Assembly (NCBI RefSeq): GCF_003966735.1
Contig: NZ_AP017378.1
Location: 496,001-560,000, forward strand
Length of the DNA stretch: 64,000 bases
Direction of reading: 5' to 3'
DNA from: Desulfovibrio ferrophilus
GTDB lineage: Bacteria > Desulfobacterota > Desulfovibrionia > Desulfovibrionales > Desulfovibrionaceae
Every line of letters starts with the position of its first letter. Position 1 is the stretch's first letter. The notes below the pieces were generated by a model that saw only the letters and a program-made list of their open reading frames with translations, did no database searches and was not told the origin of the DNA. Positions 1 to 11,830 of this stretch are shown here, piece after piece. Both the position numbers and the translations under genes were made by a program.

Positions 1-1179
1 CTCAGGGTCTATACCACCGACGCCACGTTCACTCCTGCGGATTATACCTGGGCACTGTACTCCAGTGATGATGGTGTCTTCTGGTCTCAGATCAGTGCGT
101 CTGCAAGCTTCGTTTACGATGACGAGAAGGACTACTTCGCCATCACCGTACCCGGGGTGGAAAAGCGCTATCTCAAGGTGGTGAACACGACCAATGACGC
201 CACGGTTTCGCCAATCTATGTCACCGAGATCGAAGCCTATTCCCTGGAACCGCATGCTGCTGATTCCTCGGATAGTGATATGGCCGTGACCAAGAACATT
301 CAGTTGAACATGAATTACCGGCCCAAGGAATGGCTGCAACTGTCGTATGACATGAGCCAGATCAGGCGCATGGAAGAAGCGGGGGCGGATGAGGTTCGTC
401 ATGACACGCATAACGCAGGGGTGCGGGTGAGCCATAACCTCGGGGCGTATGTGACGGCTACCGGTCAATATCAGCGGCGTCTTGAGACTCAGACCGGCGA
501 GCTGGACAGGACGTCGGATTCCTACTTGGCGAACCTGTTGGCTCAACCCATGGAGACTCTGGATGTGGACTTGTCCCTGAGCCGAGTGGATTCGCGCGAG
601 GGGTCACAGGAAGTGTCCAGCAACAGCGTTGCCCAGATGCATGTGGGGGCATTGCTCAGAAAGGGAGCGCAACTGGACGTTGAAAGCGGGCTGTCCGTTA
701 ATGAGAATTTTCAATCCGATGCCGTGACTACCGCCAGGAATCTGGACACCAGTCTGCGACTGGAATTGACGCGCAGCCTGACTGCCGATCTGATTCACGA
801 CATGAGCTGGACGGAGACCGAGCAGGCTTCGAATGTCACCAGGGGGCGGACATCATTCAGCAAGCTTGCCCTGTATTATCGCCCTTCGCGAGTACTCTAT
901 CTGCGCGGTTCGTACAGCCTCGATCAGGATCACATCACGGGCGTGGAAACGACCAGGCAGGAGTGCACTCTCGGATGGCTGCTGACGAGAAAGCTCCAGC
1001 TGGATACCGGATGGTCCTTGGAGCGTAATGGCAGCGAGAAAAAAATATTCAATGTGGACTTGGCATGGACCCTGAGCCGGATGCTCAACTTGCGATTCGG
1101 CTACGACTGGACTTGGCATCAGGCAGATATTCTGACCGAGGTGCATCAGTATTCCATGGACCTGTCCGCGAAGTTTTAG
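1..1179 (+). CDS. Outer-membrane beta-barrel-like protein, 5' partial
   Basis: The reading frame is open from the first base of the window, so the 5' end of the gene lies outside. The first ~75 residues (up to the EIEAYS segment) look like the end of a discoidin/F5-8C-type beta sandwich. After that come about 300 residues of alternating polar/hydrophobic strands ending in MDLSAKF, a terminal aromatic residue typical of outer-membrane beta barrels. No domain name can be assigned with certainty. It is the first visible gene of a tight operon encoding secreted multiheme cytochromes, 11 bases ahead of a lipoprotein gene. A porin-type partner for the cytochromes is therefore an attractive inference, not a demonstrated role. 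Confidence 0.72.
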   Translation, partial: LRVYTTDATFTPADYTWALYSSDDGVFWSQISASASFVYDDEKDYFAITVPGVEKRYLKVVNTTNDATVSPIYVTEIEAYSLEPHAADSSDSDMAVTKNIQLNMNYRPKEWLQLSYDMSQIRRMEEAGADEVRHDTHNAGVRVSHNLGAYVTATGQYQRRLETQTGELDRTSDSYLANLLAQPMETLDVDLSLSRVDSREGSQEVSSNSVAQMHVGALLRKGAQLDVESGLSVNENFQSDAVTTARNLDTSLRLELTRSLTADLIHDMSWTETEQASNVTRGRTSFSKLALYYRPSRVLYLRGSYSLDQDHITGVETTRQECTLGWLLTRKLQLDTGWSLERNGSEKKIFNVDLAWTLSRMLNLRFGYDWTWHQADILTEVHQYSMDLSAKF

Positions 1180-3363: not shown

Positions 3364-3946
3364 TGTCTTGGTACCTAAAGTCGGAGTGGTCTGCGCTCTG
3401 CTCATGTTTTTGGGGGGCTGCGCAGTTCACCCTGAGACCTACCTGCGTGAGGGGCTTGAAAATCGCGGTATCGTGGTGGTGGCGGTGTTTCCCTTTGATA
3501 ACGGCACTGCCTTTGCTGATGCCAGCCCGGTGGTGACGGCGGCCTTTGTCTCCGGACTGATGGCCTGTGGCGGTTACGAGGTGGAACATTATGGCAACGT
3601 CAAAACATTTCTTCTGGATCGACGCATTCTGGCTCGCAAAGGCACGGATATGGAAACTCTGGTTCGCATGCGCCGCAGTCTGGGAGTGGACGCCGTACTT
3701 TTTGGGCGGGTGGAAGACTATGGCGATGCCGGTGGCGTTGGCTGGGATGCGGTGCCAACGGTGGCGGTGAGTGTGCGTCTGGTGGACGCCCGTACCGGAG
3801 AAATTCTGTTCATGGCGCAACATCAACGACATGGCGATGACTATGCCGTGGCGCTGGATATCGGCAGGGTGCGCACAAGCGGAGAGTTGGCCCGACGCAT
3901 GGCGACTGAGGTTGTGGCGCAGCTTCCCCATGGTGTGGCTCAATGA
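3353..3946 (+). CDS. Second CsgG/TolB-N-like lipoprotein
   Basis: ATG 3353 lies inside the end of the preceding gene. The 197-residue product begins with a lipoprotein signal (GVVCALLMFLGGCAVHPE). It repeats the fold pattern seen at 1191: GIVVVAVFPFDNGT, GGYEVEHYGNVKTFL, RRSLGVDAVLFGRVEDYG, SVRLVDARTGEILF. Much longer upstream extensions in this frame run antisense-like through the previous coding sequence and lack a signal peptide, so they were not used. Having two lipoproteins and one secreted protein of one fold in consecutive genes suggests a hetero-oligomer at the outer membrane. That is inference. Confidence 0.8.
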   Translation: MIFDVLVPKVGVVCALLMFLGGCAVHPETYLREGLENRGIVVVAVFPFDNGTAFADASPVVTAAFVSGLMACGGYEVEHYGNVKTFLLDRRILARKGTDMETLVRMRRSLGVDAVLFGRVEDYGDAGGVGWDAVPTVAVSVRLVDARTGEILFMAQHQRHGDDYAVALDIGRVRTSGELARRMATEVVAQLPHGVAQ

Positions 3947-3959
3947 CTTGGAGGCAACG

Positions 3960-5402
3960 ATGCAAGGTGTGACGATACGGGCGGCTGCGACAGTGTTGGT
4001 CCTGGCCTGGGTGATGTGCGTTCCGAGTCTGGCCCGGTCTGCCATTGTGGCCGTGGAGGTGAATGGGCAAGCCATTGCCGTGGTTGATATTGAGCAACGG
4101 GTGCGTGACATCCATCGCGCGAAACCCAGGACCCGTTCCTCGGGCAGCGAGATGGCACTGAGCGTGGATGATATTGTGGATTCCCTGGTCAATGAGCGGT
4201 TGCTGGTGCAAGAAGCCTTGGACATGCACCTGGATGAGGGACCGGCGTTTCGCCTCAAGATGAAGGCCTTTGTGCGCGATCAATCCATACTGCAATTGTA
4301 CAGGGAAGAAGTGGAAGGGCGAGTCCAGGTGGAAGAGGCTGACATCGCTGAACGCTATACTGCCTCTCTGGGAACTGAGACCGCGCCTCAGGACAAAATC
4401 CCTGATCGTATGCGGGACCGTATTGGCAAGATTCTGCGCAAGGAACGCCAAAAGGTTTTGGCCGATGAGTTTGTGACGCGGCTTCGGGCTCAATCCGAGG
4501 TTGTGGTGAATCATGAACTGTTGCAGGCGGTAAAGCTGCCTTTGTCCCGCATTGTCCCTGAAGGTTCTGTGGTCGTCGTGAATGGAGAGCCGGTGCCAAT
4601 GGCCGAATTCATGGGCGATTTGGGGCGCGAATACGCCAAGGCCGAGTATATGCTGCAACGCTCCGAGGATGAGGCATCGCGGCTTGAGTGGCTGGAAGGT
4701 GCCAAGGAACGTGTACTCGATGCGTTGGTGACCAATGTGCTGGTTGGGCATGAAGCCTTGAAGCGTGACTATGCAGGGCAGGTTGAATTTGAACAGGCCG
4801 TTGCCGTTCGCCGTCATGCGCTGTTGCTGGATGCTTTTCGGACGCAGGTATTGCTGCCGTTGGCAGAGGCCACGGATGAGGACCTCAAACAGTTCTATGA
4901 TGACCATGCCGAACTCTACACCCGGGGCTGCCAGGTGCGATTGGGTGAATTGCGGTTCAAGGAGATGGATTTGGCTCTGGCTGCTCAGGAGGAACTGCGT
5001 GGAGGGGCTGTTTTTGCGTACCTCGCAAGGCGACTTGGCGGACGTTCCACCCCCGGTGAAGGGTGGGTTTCCGAGAACAGACTGCCCTCGGTTTTTCGTG
5101 AGGCCTTGGTCACACTCCCCGAAGGAGGAGTCAGTGATGTGCTGACACTGGGGAGGGATCTGGTGGTACTCAAGCTGCGCGGGCGGCGAGGGTGCACGGT
5201 CATGCCTTACGAAGAGGTACTGCCTGATTTGCGACGTCGGGTCCTGGAACGCAAATACGCCATGGTCCGTGAACGCTATGTTCAGGCGTTGCGGAATCAG
5301 GCGCGCATAGTGATGCATAGCGAGGTGCTTGAGAGTCTGGAAGATGCGTTTTGGAAGAGCCCACCGGACACTACCGATCAATTGGAAAGGGGTGAGCAAT
5401 GA
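3960..5402 (+). CDS. SurA/PpiC-type periplasmic peptidyl-prolyl isomerase
   Basis: ATG 3960 follows TTGGAGGCAAC. The 480-residue product has a signal peptide ending near SLARSA, then a SurA-N-like helical chaperone region (VNGQAIAVVDIEQRVRD, VDSLVNERLLVQEAL). Near residue 320 onward it has a parvulin-like rotamase region (QVRLGELRFKE, GEGWVSENRLPSVFREALVTL, GGVSDVL, LVVLKLRGRR). The family folds outer-membrane and secreted proteins in the periplasm. Its stop codon overlaps the start of the 26-heme cytochrome gene (ATGA at 5399-5402), so expression is coupled. The likely clients are the cytochromes or the barrel encoded beside it. Confidence 0.85.
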   Translation: MQGVTIRAAATVLVLAWVMCVPSLARSAIVAVEVNGQAIAVVDIEQRVRDIHRAKPRTRSSGSEMALSVDDIVDSLVNERLLVQEALDMHLDEGPAFRLKMKAFVRDQSILQLYREEVEGRVQVEEADIAERYTASLGTETAPQDKIPDRMRDRIGKILRKERQKVLADEFVTRLRAQSEVVVNHELLQAVKLPLSRIVPEGSVVVVNGEPVPMAEFMGDLGREYAKAEYMLQRSEDEASRLEWLEGAKERVLDALVTNVLVGHEALKRDYAGQVEFEQAVAVRRHALLLDAFRTQVLLPLAEATDEDLKQFYDDHAELYTRGCQVRLGELRFKEMDLALAAQEELRGGAVFAYLARRLGGRSTPGEGWVSENRLPSVFREALVTLPEGGVSDVLTLGRDLVVLKLRGRRGCTVMPYEEVLPDLRRRVLERKYAMVRERYVQALRNQARIVMHSEVLESLEDAFWKSPPDTTDQLERGEQ

Positions 5403-7324
5403 GACACACGTTACCGGTTGTTGTCGTCATGCTGCTCCTGTTTGTCTGGAGTGGAACCGTTTCCTGCCGGAGAGAAGCCAGGCCAGCCACAGGTGGTATG
5501 GGCGCGGGTTGTGTGGATTGCCACGAGCCTGAGGTTGCCGCTTATGAGCGTATCGGGAAAGTGCATACTCCGGTCGCACAGGGCGATTGTGCTGCCTGTC
5601 ATAAACCCCACGGTATAGTAGGGGGAGTGTACCTGCGCGCCGGAGGCGAAGCCCTGTGTGTGGGGTGCCATACTGACATGCGCGATGCGGCGAACAGGAA
5701 GGTTCCTCATGCCCCGGTGGCAGAGGGCGGCTGTCTGTCATGCCACGATCCCCATGTCTCTGCTCGTCCGGCTCTCGTGCGTGAACAGAGCCAGTGTTTT
5801 TCCTGCCATGACCGTGAACAGTTTGAGCGCGCTGTGCGTCACCAACCGCTGGACGAGGACGGCTGTTCGACCTGCCATGACGTGCATGGTTCGGATCATG
5901 GCAAACTGTTGAAGTCCGCAGGCCAGGATACTTGTGGCTCCTGCCACGCGGTTCAGGATAGGGCGTTTGCCGAGGCCCATGGCGGATTGATTCCTGCTGG
6001 TGATTCATGCACCTCGTGCCACACCCCGCATTCCTCAGCCGATAAAGGTCTGCTCAGGAAACAGATACATACCCCCTTTGGAAATGGCGATTGCATTTCG
6101 TGTCATGAACAGCCTGATGGATTGGGCACACCCGTCCTCAAACCGGGAGCGGAGCAATGCCAGGGCTGTCATGGCGATGCGGTCATGAGGAAAGGCGACA
6201 CACCCCACGGGGCACAGGCTCAGGGTGGTTGTCTGTCCTGTCATAATCCCCATGCGTCGGACAACAAGGCCCAGGCTCGCTTGGCTGGTGGTGAACTTTG
6301 TTATTCGTGCCACCCACAGGCAGAGGGACGAATGGGGAAAGCCTATCGGCATACACCTGCTGACAAGGGCGATTGTACCGGATGCCATGAACCGCACTCC
6401 TCGAATCTGGAGAAAGGACTGAGGGCCGAAGGATCGGCTCTGTGTTTGCGTTGTCATGAGAGTGCCCCCTTTACCAAGGCGAGGGTGCATGCACCGGTCA
6501 AGGACGGAGCCTGTCTCGACTGCCATGATGCTCATTCCTCGGATAACAAGGGGGTGCTCAAGGCCCCGGAGGTCGAGCAGTGCTATTCATGCCATCCCAA
6601 GCAGCAGATGCGCTTTGACAAAGTCAATGTGCACACGCCTGTCAGGCTTGGACAATGTGTTTCCTGTCACAGTCCGCATAGTGCGCAACGCCGCGACCTG
6701 CTGAGCGATACTCGGGAAAAGTTGTGCTTCAACTGCCATGGTGACATGAAGGTCGGTTCTGCCGGCAAGGGGCATGACCCATTCAACAAAGGCGATTGTG
6801 AAACCTGTCATGACAGTCATGCCAGCGATCAGGATTTCCATCTGGTGAGTCCCGTGTCGGACATCTGCTCCCGCTGTCATGACCGACTGGCGACTCAGGA
6901 TCAGACCACCGTGCACGAGCCTTTTGCCGGTGGACAATGCACCGCCTGTCATACTCCGCACGACAGTGGAGTGCGGCAACGCCTCAATAGGCCTCCGGGA
7001 CCGTTGTGCCTGTCGTGCCATGAAGGAGTGAAGGACAGTCTGGAGTCCAGCAAGCATCGCCACAAGCCTGCTCAGGATGGTGATTGTCTGTCCTGTCATA
7101 AGGGGCATGCCTCAAAGACTCCTGGTCTTTTGACTGCTCCGGGCGGCAAGGTTTGCGAGACGTGTCATGCCAAGGGCAAGACGGGAAATCATCGCGGAGT
7201 GGACAACTCTGGTTCTGACTGCTCCGGCTGTCATGCACCGCATGCCGCGCAGACCAAGGCCTTGTTGCAGCCAGTGCTGCACGGGCCGTTCAAGGAGGGG
7301 GCGTGTTCCGACTGCCACAAATGA
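5399..7324 (+). CDS. 26-heme doubled-CXXCH multiheme cytochrome c
   Basis: The 641-residue product has a hydrophobic export signal with a cysteine (VSC) at about residue 23 that could be a lipobox of non-ideal form. I count 26 CXXCH motifs, spaced through the whole protein. They fall in paired units of about 45 residues (pattern H-x-P..G-x-C-x-x-C-H-x-x-H-x-S), characteristic of the doubled-CXXCH cytochrome domain. Many motifs are followed by PH or AH, giving candidate distal heme ligands. The last motif is CSDCHK, directly before the stop. The role is most likely long-range electron transfer outside the inner membrane. The number of motifs is far above that of ordinary periplasmic cytochromes c3 (4 hemes) or Hmc (16 hemes). 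Confidence 0.93.
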   Translation: MRHTLPVVVVMLLLFVWSGTVSCRREARPATGGMGAGCVDCHEPEVAAYERIGKVHTPVAQGDCAACHKPHGIVGGVYLRAGGEALCVGCHTDMRDAANRKVPHAPVAEGGCLSCHDPHVSARPALVREQSQCFSCHDREQFERAVRHQPLDEDGCSTCHDVHGSDHGKLLKSAGQDTCGSCHAVQDRAFAEAHGGLIPAGDSCTSCHTPHSSADKGLLRKQIHTPFGNGDCISCHEQPDGLGTPVLKPGAEQCQGCHGDAVMRKGDTPHGAQAQGGCLSCHNPHASDNKAQARLAGGELCYSCHPQAEGRMGKAYRHTPADKGDCTGCHEPHSSNLEKGLRAEGSALCLRCHESAPFTKARVHAPVKDGACLDCHDAHSSDNKGVLKAPEVEQCYSCHPKQQMRFDKVNVHTPVRLGQCVSCHSPHSAQRRDLLSDTREKLCFNCHGDMKVGSAGKGHDPFNKGDCETCHDSHASDQDFHLVSPVSDICSRCHDRLATQDQTTVHEPFAGGQCTACHTPHDSGVRQRLNRPPGPLCLSCHEGVKDSLESSKHRHKPAQDGDCLSCHKGHASKTPGLLTAPGGKVCETCHAKGKTGNHRGVDNSGSDCSGCHAPHAAQTKALLQPVLHGPFKEGACSDCHK

Positions 7325-7352: not shown

Positions 7353-8594
7353 ATGTCCATGAAACCGTGTTGGAGCATACCGTTGTGGGTGGTCGTCTTT
7401 GCTGCCCTCGTGTTGTGGGTCTTTGTGCCTTGGGCTTCGGGGGCTCGTCCGGGGGCCGGTCCGCCAGAGGGGTGTGTTTCGTGTCACCCTGGACTGAAGG
7501 CGGAGATGGCACAGGCCGATGCGCATGAACCCTTTCGGAAGCAGAAGTGTGATGGCTGTCATACCGTACATGCTTCCAAGTATGGGCACCTGCTCAAGGC
7601 GGAACCACGTGAACTTTGTCTGCGCTGTCATGACGGCGGCGGACGGGGGGGCGATGACATCGTGCACTCACCCTATGGCTCCGGGGATTGCATGAAATGT
7701 CACGACCCCCACTCGTCCGGTCGGAAAAAGATGCTTGTCGCGAAGCAGGATGAGCTGTGTTTCGGCTGTCACGACAAGGACCGTATTGCCAATGGGAAAA
7801 TCCATGCCCCCGTGCGCAAGGGGAGTTGCTTGAGCTGCCATAAGGCGCATACGTCCCAAAATGAGGGCTTGCTCAGCAAGCAACGGGTGGCGTTGTGCAA
7901 AGGGTGCCATCCTGATGCCGGGACGAAAGCCGGAGCACACCGTGGCTATTCGGTTGCGGATGCCGATTGCATGTCCTGCCACAGCCCACACAGTTCACAA
8001 CGCAAGGCTCTTGTTATGGATGCCAGCCATGAGCCTTTCAAGCGCGGCCAATGCTCCGCCTGCCACACAAAGGCTGCTGGCGGCGGTGCACTCAAGGAAC
8101 AGGGGGCTCAGCTCTGCCTGCGCTGTCACGAGGATGAGGCCGAGAGCTTCCGCAAGACCGTAAGCCATACGGGCCAAGGTGTGTATTGCTTGAATTGCCA
8201 TGGACCGCATGCTTCGGAACGCGACAAGCTTCGTCGTTCCAGCGAGACTAGGATGTGTCTGGGGTGCCATACCGATACTGCGGAATTGGTGCGAGATCCT
8301 CGTGCGTCATACAAGCACCCGCTGGTCAAGGAAGGGCGGTGCACCGGCTGCCATACCCCTCATGGTTCGGACCAGCCCCATCTCTTCGAGAAGGGAGAGA
8401 TTGGAGGATGTACCAACTGCCATGAGCGGCACGCCCAGTTTACGCATCCCATTGGCGAAGACACGGTGGACCCACGCTCCAAGCGGGATATCTCGTGCAT
8501 CACCTGCCACAACCTGATGGGCAGTCCCTATCCCTATGCACTGCGGTTCGACAGGAAGAAAGCCCTGTGTCTGCAATGCCATAAGGGATACTAG
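7353..8594 (+). CDS. 16-heme doubled-CXXCH multiheme cytochrome c
   Basis: ATG 7353 is preceded by GAGGAGGACAGG. The 413-residue product has an N-terminal signal or membrane anchor (residues ~8-30) and 16 CXXCH motifs by count. It has the same H-x-P..C-x-x-C-H-x-x-H-x-S unit as the 26-heme neighbour 28 bases upstream, so the two are paralogs. The C-terminal part departs from the regular repeat (CTNCHERHAQFTHP, CITCHNLMGSPYPYA), which may be a docking region. The number 16 is shared with Desulfovibrio HmcA, but the regular doubled-CXXCH organisation and the neighbourhood differ from the hmc operon. It is expected to act as an electron-transfer relay in the periplasm or at the outer membrane. 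Confidence 0.92.
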   Translation: MSMKPCWSIPLWVVVFAALVLWVFVPWASGARPGAGPPEGCVSCHPGLKAEMAQADAHEPFRKQKCDGCHTVHASKYGHLLKAEPRELCLRCHDGGGRGGDDIVHSPYGSGDCMKCHDPHSSGRKKMLVAKQDELCFGCHDKDRIANGKIHAPVRKGSCLSCHKAHTSQNEGLLSKQRVALCKGCHPDAGTKAGAHRGYSVADADCMSCHSPHSSQRKALVMDASHEPFKRGQCSACHTKAAGGGALKEQGAQLCLRCHEDEAESFRKTVSHTGQGVYCLNCHGPHASERDKLRRSSETRMCLGCHTDTAELVRDPRASYKHPLVKEGRCTGCHTPHGSDQPHLFEKGEIGGCTNCHERHAQFTHPIGEDTVDPRSKRDISCITCHNLMGSPYPYALRFDRKKALCLQCHKGY

Positions 8595-8621
8595 GTCTGC
8601 AGTGTAGTGAGGATAATAGAG

Positions 8622-9521
8622 ATGGCAACGCGCATGATCATGCTGTTTTTGGTGTTGGCACTGGCCGTGCCTTGTTCCGTGCAGGCACGCAGTTCCGCGC
8701 CCGGACATCTGGTCTCTGTGGTTCGTTCAGCAGAAACAGGTCCTTTCGGGTTGCTGGGCGGGGTGTTTTTTGATGAAGCCCGCAAGCGGTTGTATGTGGC
8801 GGACACTTCAGGTGGTCGTATCCTGGCCTATGACTCGACTTTCGGCTTTGTGTCACAGTTTGATGGGGGGGGAGTGCTCAGCGCTCCTTCTGCTCTGGTG
8901 CGCGATGAGTCGGGCAGGTTCTATGTCATTCAGGCAGGAGAAGATGCCGTACTAACCGTGGATATGCAGCGCAAGACCATGGAACCGTTGAGTTTTGATG
9001 GCGTCCAGGGCATCAATGCGGTGCACCCCGTCAATCTTGCCCTTGATGGGGATGACAACCTCTATGTGGCCGATGCCGCCAACCAGCAGATATTGATGTT
9101 CGGACCAGACAGGCGCTACCACGGGGCCATTTCCGTGCCCCATGGGGATGGATTGCGGGACGTGAAGGTGACCGGCGGTCGAGTCTACACGGTGAATGCT
9201 CTCCGGGGTGGAGTATGTGTTTATGATCTCTCCGGTCGGTTGGTGACACAGTTTGGCGAACGGGGGCGGGAACGTGGGGAAATGGCCTTTCCCGTGAGCC
9301 TTGCGGTTGCTTCCGGTGGACAGGTTCACGTGCTGGACAGGCATCGTTGCAAGATCCTGGTATTTACGGCCAAGGGAAAGTTCCTGCATGAGTTCTCCAG
9401 AGAAGGATGGCGGGAGGGGCGCTTGCATTATCCATCCTATCTCTACAGGAATGAAGCTGGGCAGTTGTTTGTCGTGGATAGACAGAACGAACGAGTGAGT
9501 GTGTTCGAGCAGGGGCGCTGA
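8622..9521 (+). CDS. Secreted NHL-repeat beta-propeller protein
   Basis: The 299-residue product has a signal peptide (MATRMIMLFLVLALAVPCSVQA) and repeated NHL-type blades: GGVFFDEARKRLYVADTSGGRIL, PVNLALDGDDNLYVADAANQQI, FPVSLAVASGGQVHVLDRHRCKI, YPSYLYRNEAGQLFVVDRQNERV. These suggest a six-bladed propeller used for protein-protein contact. ATG 8622 was chosen over GTG 8607 because it begins directly at the signal peptide, with GAGGATAA about ten bases upstream. The stop and the next start overlap by one base. NHL propellers are recurrent companions of secreted cytochrome genes in metal reducers, so a binding or assembly role is likely. Confidence 0.87.
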   Translation: MATRMIMLFLVLALAVPCSVQARSSAPGHLVSVVRSAETGPFGLLGGVFFDEARKRLYVADTSGGRILAYDSTFGFVSQFDGGGVLSAPSALVRDESGRFYVIQAGEDAVLTVDMQRKTMEPLSFDGVQGINAVHPVNLALDGDDNLYVADAANQQILMFGPDRRYHGAISVPHGDGLRDVKVTGGRVYTVNALRGGVCVYDLSGRLVTQFGERGRERGEMAFPVSLAVASGGQVHVLDRHRCKILVFTAKGKFLHEFSREGWREGRLHYPSYLYRNEAGQLFVVDRQNERVSVFEQGR

Positions 9522-10657
9522 TGCGCAGGCGACGGGGTGTTGTTGCATGGGTATTGGCCTGGCTGGCAGTGCTGATGCTGCTGGCTTTGGCTTCGACTCT
9601 CGGGGCTCGGGTGTCCGGCCCGTGTTCCGATTGTCACACCATGCACAACAGTCAGGACGCAGCTCCCATGGCCTATGGATTTACCGGGAGCAGCTATGAA
9701 GCAAAGTCCGATCCCAACGCCAATCTGCTGATTACGGACTGCCTGGGCTGTCATTCGGCTCTGGACGGCAGTACGTGGAAAGATTCGACCACGGGGGCAC
9801 CCATTGTATTCAACACTTCCGAGCCGAATTACGGGGCTTCTTCGGACGGCGGAACCACACGTCAGGGCTTGGCCGCAGGGAATTTCTATTGGGCGGGACA
9901 GGACGATGCCAACGGTCACAATATCATGGCTGCCGATGGCTCGTTGAGCACTGCTCCGGGCAATTCGGTGGGCTGTGGCGGTGACTCCTGCCACAACAAT
10001 CTTGATCGCCCGTATGGGGGCGCGGGGTTCCTCAATGGTCGGTCTGCGTGTACGGGCTGCCATATGGTGTCCGGAAGCGTATCTCCTTCCGTAACTGGCT
10101 GGCATCACAAAGATGATGCCGGGCCGATTGTGAATACTGCCGAACAGGGCTGGTACCGTTTTCTTGCGGGGCATGAGACCGGTGACGGGCACGGGGTGGC
10201 AGGGCTTGAGGATGACGACTGGGAGCATACGACGTCCTCTTCGGATCACAACGAGTATCTTGGCAGTACAGGGGACAAGACCGATAGCCAGGCCATGGCC
10301 CGCGAAGGAAACACCATGAGCGGTTTCTGTGCCGGATGCCATGGCAATTTCCATGAACAGAATACGTCTCCCGCAGGGAGTTCGCCTTGGATACGCCATC
10401 CTTCGGACGCGGTTATTCCGGCGGGAGGCGAATATACAGCTTTTATCGCTTACGATCCTCTGGTGCCCGTGGCTCGTGCAAGCCTTGGCGGTACAGCCAG
10501 TCCGGCCGTGACGCCCGGTTCAGATATGGTGATGTGCCTTTCCTGCCATCGGGCCCACGCCAGCCCTTATTACAAGATGATGCGTTGGGATTATCGCAGC
10601 GGCGACCTGAGTACTTCGTTGTCGGGCTGTGGCGTGTGCCACACCAAGAAGAATTAA
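9521..10657 (+). CDS. Seven-heme-motif secreted cytochrome, OmcS-like
   Basis: The 378-residue product has a signal peptide with predicted cleavage near residue 29. It carries six CXXCH motifs (starting at residues 35, 74, 177, 270, 339 and 370) plus one CX4CH (residues 152-158). The first heme lies a few residues after the signal cleavage site and the last four residues before the C-terminus. Landmarks CHTMHNS (N-terminus), GHNI followed by STAPG, RHP, CLSCHRAHAS and a CHxK end resemble my recollection of Geobacter OmcS, whose subunits polymerise into heme-stacked filaments. OmcS has six hemes, so this protein would be a longer variant. Filament formation is inference. The low share of hydrophobic repeats argues for a soluble extracellular protein. 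Confidence 0.88.
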   Translation: MRRRRGVVAWVLAWLAVLMLLALASTLGARVSGPCSDCHTMHNSQDAAPMAYGFTGSSYEAKSDPNANLLITDCLGCHSALDGSTWKDSTTGAPIVFNTSEPNYGASSDGGTTRQGLAAGNFYWAGQDDANGHNIMAADGSLSTAPGNSVGCGGDSCHNNLDRPYGGAGFLNGRSACTGCHMVSGSVSPSVTGWHHKDDAGPIVNTAEQGWYRFLAGHETGDGHGVAGLEDDDWEHTTSSSDHNEYLGSTGDKTDSQAMAREGNTMSGFCAGCHGNFHEQNTSPAGSSPWIRHPSDAVIPAGGEYTAFIAYDPLVPVARASLGGTASPAVTPGSDMVMCLSCHRAHASPYYKMMRWDYRSGDLSTSLSGCGVCHTKKN

Positions 10658-10669
10658 GAGGAGAGACGG

Positions 10670-11830
10670 ATGCGTGCTGGATGGGTTTGGCTGGGTGCGA
10701 TGGCCCTGTGCGCTTTGGCTACGGTGGCCTGGGCAGGTCCCTACACGGACTCGGCCCATGGTGATGCCGGCTTCGGAGTGCTGCGCTCCTCCGTGACGCA
10801 ATACACTCGTGGGCATTGCGGACATTGCCATGAGCAGCACGCCAGCATTGCAGGCAGTGAACCCAGCCCCTCCGGTGGCCCGGATGCCTATCTGCTATAT
10901 GAGACCAACCATGTCAGCCAGACCGAGAATTTCTGTTTCACCTGCCATACGGGGGCCGGTGGAAACCAGGTGGGTGGCATCTCCATCAATCGGAGCTACA
11001 CATACAATTTCGGAGGGGATACAACTCCCGGCAGCTATGATTCGGATATTGCTGCGGCGTTTTCGCACACCATGTCTGGGTCCTCGCACCATCTGGATAG
11101 CATTGTCAGTCAGGTGCTGGGCAAGACCATGTACGATGCCGACAATATCCCCTGGTCATTGCCTGCGGATATCAACCCCTGTGATGCCTGCCATAATCCA
11201 CATCTGGTCAAGCGCAATTATCCGGTGGATATCTCTGGTGGCCTGTTGGGAACAGCAGTCACCCGGCCTTCCGATCCGGATAACCTGTGGGGGGATGACA
11301 GTTCGGAGCGTGCCAGCGCTGTGGGATGGTATCAGGCTCCGTATTGGTTTGGCAGGACGGACAGGTATGAGCCTGACAACGACACCGTGCAGGATGGCAG
11401 TAATTTGCCTGATTATAATCGCCTCTGCACCGATTGTCATAACGATTACAATACGATTTACAGTGAAAACCCCATGCTGCCCGATGGCCCCAGGAACCTG
11501 CGCAAGATCAATTGGACGGCGACTAGTGGTGCCGTTACCGCTGATGCCCATGGTGTAGTGGCCGGATCACCCCGCAAGTTGCAAATGCCGTATTCTGCAG
11601 TGGGAGGGAACATTATCCTGGGATGTCTGGATTGCCACGAACCCCACGGAACGCCTTATAATATTTACCTGCTCAGATCCTCGGTCAACGGCAAGGCCGT
11701 TCATGTAACAGACGAAACCGATACTGCGTGGCTCAGCTTCTGTCAGAACTCCTGTCATGGCAGAAAACACGACTGGAAGGTTGGTTGTGCGGGCTGTCAT
11801 TATCACGGTGCGGCGAGGGGAGGCTTCTAG
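10670..11830 (+). CDS. Seven-heme-motif secreted cytochrome c with a CX3CH site
   Basis: ATG 10670 follows AAGAGGAGAGACGG. The 386-residue product has a signal peptide (cleavage after AWA, residue 22). It has six CXXCH motifs (starting at residues 50, 89, 171, 253, 319 and 373) and one CX3CH (residues 358-363). Features include CHEQHAS at the first heme, a GSSHHL stretch near residue 138 and CHEPHGTPYNIYLL near residue 322. It has long aromatic- and Gly/Asp/Asn-rich spacers instead of the short doubled-CXXCH repeat. It is the last gene of the operon, 12 bases after the OmcS-like gene. It probably is a second extracellular electron-transfer protein. Whether it is a filament subunit, cap or adaptor cannot be told. 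Confidence 0.87.
   Translation: MRAGWVWLGAMALCALATVAWAGPYTDSAHGDAGFGVLRSSVTQYTRGHCGHCHEQHASIAGSEPSPSGGPDAYLLYETNHVSQTENFCFTCHTGAGGNQVGGISINRSYTYNFGGDTTPGSYDSDIAAAFSHTMSGSSHHLDSIVSQVLGKTMYDADNIPWSLPADINPCDACHNPHLVKRNYPVDISGGLLGTAVTRPSDPDNLWGDDSSERASAVGWYQAPYWFGRTDRYEPDNDTVQDGSNLPDYNRLCTDCHNDYNTIYSENPMLPDGPRNLRKINWTATSGAVTADAHGVVAGSPRKLQMPYSAVGGNIILGCLDCHEPHGTPYNIYLLRSSVNGKAVHVTDETDTAWLSFCQNSCHGRKHDWKVGCAGCHYHGAARGGF

Follow-up and report, generated by a model that had tools for sequence, protein, structure and literature searches.

A seven-motif cytochrome gene in Desulfovibrio ferrophilus

The window analysed here, a 64,000-nt stretch of the Desulfovibrio ferrophilus genome (contig NZ_AP017378.1, positions 496,001 to 560,000, forward strand), contains an open reading frame (ORF) at 9521-10657 for a multiheme cytochrome that resembles OmcS, the Geobacter sulfurreducens cytochrome that forms electrically conductive filaments. 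Gene order identifies this ORF as DFE_0464 and the following one (10670-11830) as DFE_0465, since the series of genes around them agrees with the DFE_0448 to DFE_0465 list published for strain IS5 (PMC8322314, Table 2). The frame of DFE_0464 opens with an ATG at 9521, closes with a TAA stop (10655-10657) and encodes 378 amino acids, beginning with a Sec-type leader that is also predicted in PMC8322314 (Table 2). If the leader is cut at around residue 29, a site placed by eye, the mature protein has its first cysteine at about position 6; at the other end, the last heme histidine stands four residues before the C-terminus. In total, the translation holds seven heme motifs, six CXXCH and one CX4CH, as compared to six motifs in OmcS. 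Landmarks follow one another in the order CHTMHNS (38-44), GHN (132-134), RHP (292-294), CLSCHRAHAS (339-348) and a terminal CHTKKN; the OmcS chain, as aligned from the Protein Data Bank (PDB), shows the identical order and ends in CHAKD. The sequence-only reading was thus right about the motif number, the CX4CH form, the motifs at both chain ends and the series of landmarks.

Table 1. Coordinates of DFE_0464, its sequence features and its neighbours (window positions; residues in precursor numbering)
Feature	Position	Strand	Remark
Candidate outer-membrane porin/F5-8 protein, DFE_0453	1..1179	+	3' part; whole gene -1073..1179
ORF with PPIC-type prolyl isomerase, DFE_0457	3771..5402	+	Real start probably further in
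26-heme cytochrome, EL361_RS02315 by order	5399..7324	+	Lipoprotein-like N-terminus by eye
16-heme cytochrome, DFE_0462	7353..8594	+	
NHL/six-bladed beta-propeller, DFE_0463	8607..9521	+	TGA overlaps the cytochrome ATG by one base
Heptaheme cytochrome ORF, OmcS superfamily, DFE_0464 by gene order	9521..10657	+	ORF list, profiles, shuffle control
Sec-type leader	9521..9607	+	No lipobox Cys; cut at ~residue 29 by eye
Heme motif 1, CSDCH	9623..9637	+	C35-H39
His42 codon (in CHTMH)	9644..9646	+	Counterpart of OmcS His16
Heme motif 2, CLGCH	9740..9754	+	C74-H78
Heme motif 3, CGGDSCH (CX4CH)	9974..9994	+	C152-H158; spacing variable in the family
Heme motif 4, CTGCH	10049..10063	+	C177-H181; extra versus OmcS and six-heme paralog
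His195-His196 pair	10103..10108	+	Kept in seven- and six-heme clades, missing in OmcS
Heme motif 5, CAGCH	10328..10342	+	C270-H274
Heme motif 6, CLSCH	10535..10549	+	C339-H343, within CLSCHRAHAS
Heme motif 7, CGVCH	10628..10642	+	C370-H374, C-terminal
Seven-heme cytochrome, DFE_0465	10670..11830	+	12 bases downstream of DFE_0464

Kinship with OmcS and distribution of the family

Profile searches place DFE_0464 almost certainly within the OmcS superfamily. Three profiles were used: A1 (six rows, comprising DFE_0464, two orthologs and three copies of its paralog), A2 (81 rows of relatives) and A3 (18 OmcS-type rows, excluding both OmcS and DFE_0464). Against all PDB chains, A1 retrieved OmcS (6ef8) with E = 3e-13 across 320 profile positions, the runner-up having E = 1.1, in a colinear alignment that runs from the first motif to slightly beyond CLSCHRAH. 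With A2, OmcS reached 2.4e-27, followed by NrfA (cytochrome c nitrite reductases) at 1.4e-4 or weaker over ~115 residues. OmcE and OmcZ are likewise multiheme and filament-forming, yet have no sequence match to DFE_0464: OmcE (7tfs) came up in the A2 search with E = 0.54 across ~20 residues, which rules out the kinship with OmcE that the earlier reading had put forward for checking, and OmcZ was not among the 23 PDB matches of this profile at E up to 10. Conversely, a search of the D. ferrophilus genome (3.72 Mb, two contigs) with A3 ranked DFE_0464 first (6.1e-31), its paralog DFE_0450 second (8.9e-20) and DFE_0465 third (1.8e-6).

A hidden Markov model (HMM) of the OmcS type, built from 19 rows including OmcS, scored DFE_0464 at 108.3 bits, the paralog at 79.2, DFE_0465 at 29.7 and the 16-heme cytochrome at 4.2, the 26-heme and both 12-heme proteins of the locus being negative. 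Shuffled versions of DFE_0464 in which all heme motifs, every histidine and the residues following each CH were preserved (n = 200) averaged 15.5 bits and did not exceed 40.1, and the resemblance to OmcS therefore goes beyond heme-motif content. With a five-row HMM (OmcS and four sequences close to it), DFE_0464 obtained 54.4 bits versus a shuffle maximum of 27.3. Outside the motifs, the two proteins have the signatures GHN..D..L..APG, LRHP and LSCHRAH in common; NCBIfam and Pfam returned doubled-CXXCH and other generic multiheme matches, and nothing more specific. The OmcS likeness claimed at the outset is thereby borne out by family profile, reciprocal profile and shuffles alike, and these comparisons support DFE_0464 as a real yet distant relative. 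It resembles OmcS (PDB 6EF8, 6NEF) over most of its length, in landmark order, in the terminal hemes at the chain ends and in the CHTMH histidine, but differs by an additional CXXCH between OmcS hemes 3 and 4, by the CX4CH form of heme 3, by the gain of a histidine pair and by the loss of the CHDPH histidine. Nor is it a strict ortholog, having seven motifs and falling outside the OmcS-type clade, with a value of 98 in the Shimodaira-Hasegawa-like approximate likelihood ratio test (SH-aLRT).

The genome encodes a paralog, DFE_0450, with 34-37% identity to DFE_0464 and the same N- and C-terminal signatures; it differs in having six hemes, with heme 3 as CX5CH and no heme 4. Its gene lies at the opposite end of the gene island, outside the window (locus L002, 1480-2499; genome contig C1, ~491,425-492,438).

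In the phylum sample of 395 genomes, A1 matched 49 (E up to 1e-10). Within the family, a search with the DFE_0464 sequence found relatives in 4 of 149 genomes, one of them just weak and partial, and A2 (E up to 1e-20) found them in 2 of 199 genomes of the class, both of the same genus. Scanning named genomes yielded at least 530 related stretches, from which 79 loci were kept, their taxa including Deltaproteobacteria/Thermodesulfobacteriota, Nitrospirae, Deferribacteres and Fermentibacteria. For a tree (IQ-TREE quick mode, SH-aLRT support only), 72 rows were picked randomly inside groups from a set of 126, which consisted of 102 of 112 named rows (selected by length and N-terminal motif rules), five kin of DFE_0464 and 19 OmcS-type rows; the choice of rows is biased toward full-length, top-scoring copies. 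OmcS types and all other rows were split at SH-aLRT 98. All 31 seven-heme rows of the DFE_0464 type fell into one clade (SH-aLRT 99; 35 rows, the others being one eight-motif and three six-motif rows), which makes the extra heme an old and mostly retained feature. By these sequences, the heptaheme clade is separate from OmcS and spans Desulfobacterota and Nitrospirota. The closest relatives of DFE_0464 in the tree (7 rows, 96) come from Nitrospirota and other metagenome-assembled genomes outside the Desulfovibrio kin, which, together with the patchy occurrence among the latter, points to acquisition of the gene by lateral transfer.

There is a second seven-heme type, with CX5CH and a differing additional motif (L028, L031, L071, L097, L123, L137, L140, L145-L148, L150 and L159). 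Its six tree rows lie outside the seven-heme clade of DFE_0464, so that extra hemes were seemingly gained more than once. One relative genome (G337) carries OmcS-like genes at two sites (C1:456289-471534 and 894434-907684). An in-frame TGA had been reported in two relatives from genome G186; in one of them (L186) the frame proved uninterrupted from the methionine onward.

Seven-motif proteins of this kind are already known, since DA_402 of the sulfur bacterium Desulfurivibrio alkaliphilus has been described as extracellular, OmcS-like and predicted to form filaments (PMC12545173), as we propose for DFE_0464. Six of its seven motifs align with OmcS, the seventh having been disregarded for want of a paired histidine; its template modelling score to OmcS is 0.56, and it belongs to a sister clade of OmcS. 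The available part of that paper does not discuss DFE_0464. OmcS-like and Apc2a cytochromes are also part of the Oet clusters of bacterial partners of anaerobic methanotrophic archaea (PMC10553843), a cluster type to which the DFE_0464 island conforms, albeit in another host; a joint role of filament and porin has been proposed there, and OmcS-like filament proteins have been proposed for the Oet clusters of sulfate reducers. The word 'ferrophilus' is absent from the text of PMC10553843. The nanowire subunit outside Geobacter that the sequence-only reading suggested, on condition of a shared fold, would therefore not be a first, and in this respect was overstated; DFE_0464 adds a well-supported further case. 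Our literature search, which covered mostly titles and the starts of abstracts, with subscription papers largely outside its scope, found no text naming DFE_0464 an OmcS relative. What is new is a disagreement with the printed record and a conserved set of eight spare histidines. D. ferrophilus has been said to have no homologs of the multiheme cytochromes of Geobacter and Shewanella and no apparent porin conduit (PMC9769857), a no-homolog statement with which the profile results disagree as regards OmcS. PMC11434368 describes OmcS as distributed much like the conduits and reports that Desulfovibrionaceae lack homologs of it.

Heme sites and spare histidines

The third heme site is variable in its spacing. 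Among 108 named six- and seven-motif rows it was CX2 in 28, CX3 in 18, CX4 in 24, CX5 in 37 and CX6 in one, and the non-third sites of the same rows were CX2 in 613 out of 616 cases. In the segment from GHN to the histidine pair, heme 3 of OmcS (APG..QLxCSSCH) corresponds to CX4CH in DFE_0464 and to the CX5CH of the six-heme type, which is marked by the conserved form CAGxxGCH. The extra motif CTGCH stands after CX4CH and before the histidine pair. Alternative MAFFT columns align the CX5CH of the six-heme type with CTGCH instead; with A1 and the neighbouring APG/PPG as guides, we tentatively prefer CX5CH as the counterpart of CX4CH. Searching the literature for CX5CH as a motif term found no paper; longer spacings are already in use, given the heme search rule of CX2-5CH in PMC12545173.

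Spare histidines were counted in 94 seven-heme and 63 six-heme rows, the numbers left after de-duplication; the rows had been selected on their number of motifs and on a pattern for the first motif of which His42 is a part. The seven-heme rows conserve eight non-motif histidines: 42, 133, 195, 196, 293 and 346 in 94/94, 243 in 93/94 and 278 in 88/94. As this makes eight candidates for seven distal ligands, full bis-His ligation of DFE_0464 is possible, supposing that every motif carries heme. The six-heme class of DFE_0450 conserves eight non-motif histidines against six hemes, each in 59 to 63 of the 63 rows. OmcS has counterparts of His42 (16), His133 (110), His278 (247), His293 (257) and His346 (335), and no equivalents of His195, His196 and His243.

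We take OmcS His16, in CHTMH, to be the ligand that a neighbouring subunit donates to heme 5; its counterpart His42 is present in DFE_0464 and could play the same intersubunit part. In named rows not selected for it, a His42-type histidine, three residues after the first motif, occurs wherever the N-terminus is complete: in 110 of 110 (104 matched the pattern, six were recognised by eye), the other two of the 112 being truncated. Likewise, in a set of 84 profile hits, 82 intact rows have a CHTMH-type histidine: 81 match the pattern, and L063, which the pattern count excluded along with the truncated L057 and L005, has CHTIH.

In OmcS, hemes stack in motif order, and 11 of the 12 axial histidines are intrachain, with one on heme 5 coming from the neighbour (PMC6584659). 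Antiparallel and T-shaped heme pairs take turns along OmcS and OmcE; in OmcZ, where one of eight hemes lies off the chain, an antiparallel step has to be doubled (PMC9473688). If DFE_0464 folds alike, its extra heme would sit between OmcS hemes 3 and 4. As seven cannot be split into pairs, we infer that a seven-heme repeat breaks the alternation or branches. The conserved heptaheme clade raises the questions of what job the odd heme has in a wire and of whether the seventh motif disregarded in the Desulfurivibrio protein is truly empty.

The gene island and the likely role of DFE_0464

DFE_0463, DFE_0464 and DFE_0465 look like one operon, given the one-base overlap and the 12-base gap between them. 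The island reads, in order, two 12-heme cytochromes, the six-heme cytochrome, two propellers, an F5/8-porin, three lipoprotein/OmpA-type proteins, the prolyl isomerase, the 26-heme and 16-heme cytochromes, a propeller and two seven-heme cytochromes. The 26-heme and 16-heme cytochromes, a six-bladed propeller and a prolyl isomerase, here found side by side, are the core of the SEEP-SRB1 operon (PMC5539420); such operons have been called Oet clusters, with porin, OmcX, OmcS-like and Apc2a cytochromes (PMC10553843), and likeness to the cluster of Desulfofervidus has already been pointed out (PMC8322314). The candidate porin DFE_0453 matched a porin model only at a score short of the cut-off (E 0.0099) and shares its syntenic place with genes of relatives at E 7e-6 to 8e-14. 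A conduit at this island is likely. In four of five regions from relatives (L094-L097) the series is syntenic, and two or three OmcS-like six- or seven-heme genes to an island flank the conduit core at the island ends; the fifth (L098) has OmcS-like and 12-heme genes without conduit genes.

DFE_0464 very probably takes part in extracellular electron transfer. We read it as a secreted heptaheme protein of the OmcS superfamily within an Oet-type outer-membrane electron-conduit island, most likely acting as an extracellular carrier outside the conduit and probably polymerising head-to-tail like OmcS. Electron passage through the outer membrane would fall to the 26-heme, 16-heme and porin proteins, with the current running inward when Fe(0) or a cathode is the electron source; outside the cell, the path would be lengthened by chains of DFE_0464 and perhaps also of DFE_0450. 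As a whole, we consider this account fairly likely, and for the role as a filament subunit, argued from analogy with OmcS, the balance tips towards yes. DFE_0464 is predicted extracellular in print. It has been detected in biofilm and extracellular protein fractions and, according to Deng et al. as retold in the same paper, is among the overexpressed cytochromes (PMC8322314).

Several observations weigh against this account. As a single sequence, DFE_0464 found no PDB chain with phmmer at E up to 1. OmcS His147 (CHDPH) has no counterpart in DFE_0464, by segments read by eye, so that its ligands cannot simply mirror those of OmcS, and the CHTMH histidine is not universal even among the OmcS types, 1 of 18 rows (L087) lacking it. 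An AlphaFold2 (AF2) monomer of DFE_0464, made with the 81-row alignment, has a predicted local distance difference test score (pLDDT) of 72.5 and a predicted template modelling score of 0.75, with a pLDDT below 50 over the final 24 residues; Foldseek and VIA-align matched this model to no PDB chain. A control model of an OmcS-type protein reached a pLDDT of 36, and the DFE_0464 model has little regular secondary structure, as in OmcS. We count the missing Foldseek match as uninformative, because OmcS is mostly coil and because DALI and Foldseek return for OmcS and OmcE just themselves and extensively similar homologs (PMC9473688). As for the organism, the proteome study of PMC8322314 recorded no significant increase of DFE_0464 on steel. 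A mutant deleted for DFE_0464-0465 was unimpaired in reducing Fe(III) oxide, and six genes for outer-surface cytochromes showed no rise on that mineral. The strain's short straight filaments, conductive according to earlier work, need pseudopilin genes, maybe via export.

The best-surviving rival, tentative but to be taken seriously, is that DFE_0464, as an extracellular or cell-surface cytochrome of the same superfamily, would not polymerise and would instead dock on the Oet conduit and exchange electrons as a monomer with minerals, steel or shuttles. The loss of OmcS His147, the inserted heme and the lack of a fold match would suit it, as would the reported occurrence of DFE_0464 in extracellular and biofilm proteomes and not in the outer-membrane fraction, the filament role itself being an extrapolation; the CHTMH-type histidine of every N-terminally complete row (both sets above) and terminal motifs at both chain ends, as in filament-forming OmcS, speak against it.

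A bolder version of the filament reading, which we find doubtful, would make the DFE_0464 clade heptaheme nanowires in which the fourth heme breaks the alternation, and would equate these wires with the strain's short straight conductive filaments. The odd heme might then either double an antiparallel step, the way OmcZ does along its seven in-chain hemes, or branch off to the surface and meet steel or minerals from the side, and the filaments would be lost in pseudopilin deletions because pseudopili export the cytochrome. In Geobacter, the extracellular presence of OmcS and OmcZ reportedly depends on pilin (PMC12307469), which makes a pseudopilin link for DFE_0464 testable and does not prove it.

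It is improbable that DFE_0464 is a periplasmic or conduit-internal wire joining the 16-heme and 26-heme proteins: its gene is near both on the same strand and its Sec leader has no lipobox, but the protein is predicted to be extracellular and has been reported from the extracellular fraction (PMC8322314), and in relatives such genes stand at island ends. Least credible is chance resemblance through CXXCH content alone, as hinted at by NrfA and other multiheme proteins appearing at weak E-values with the 81-row profile, since OmcS scores more than 20 orders of magnitude better than these, the motif-keeping shuffles all fall below the real score and so refute it, and the reciprocal search and shared non-motif signatures single out DFE_0464.

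D. ferrophilus IS5, a sulfate reducer from the sea, is a genetically tractable model of electrical steel corrosion. Should DFE_0464 and DFE_0450 prove to be filament proteins of the OmcS family in an Oet-type island, the strain would offer a test bed for cytochrome nanowires that take up electrons from metal, and a possible explanation for conductive filaments other than type IV pili.

DFE_0465, which has been proposed as a corrosion marker (PMC8322314), has seven motifs, with eight in three orthologs. Its 29.7 bits on the OmcS-type HMM exceed all 300 motif-keeping shuffles (maximum 21.0), and phmmer with DFE_0465 found no PDB chain; distant kinship with OmcS is a mere possibility, as the three orthologs score only 7.9-15.8. 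The two 12-heme cytochromes DFE_0448 and DFE_0449 lie upstream, at -6482..-4655 relative to the window (L037), and their heme number recalls the OmcX-related 11/12-heme pair of SEEP-SRB1 operons.

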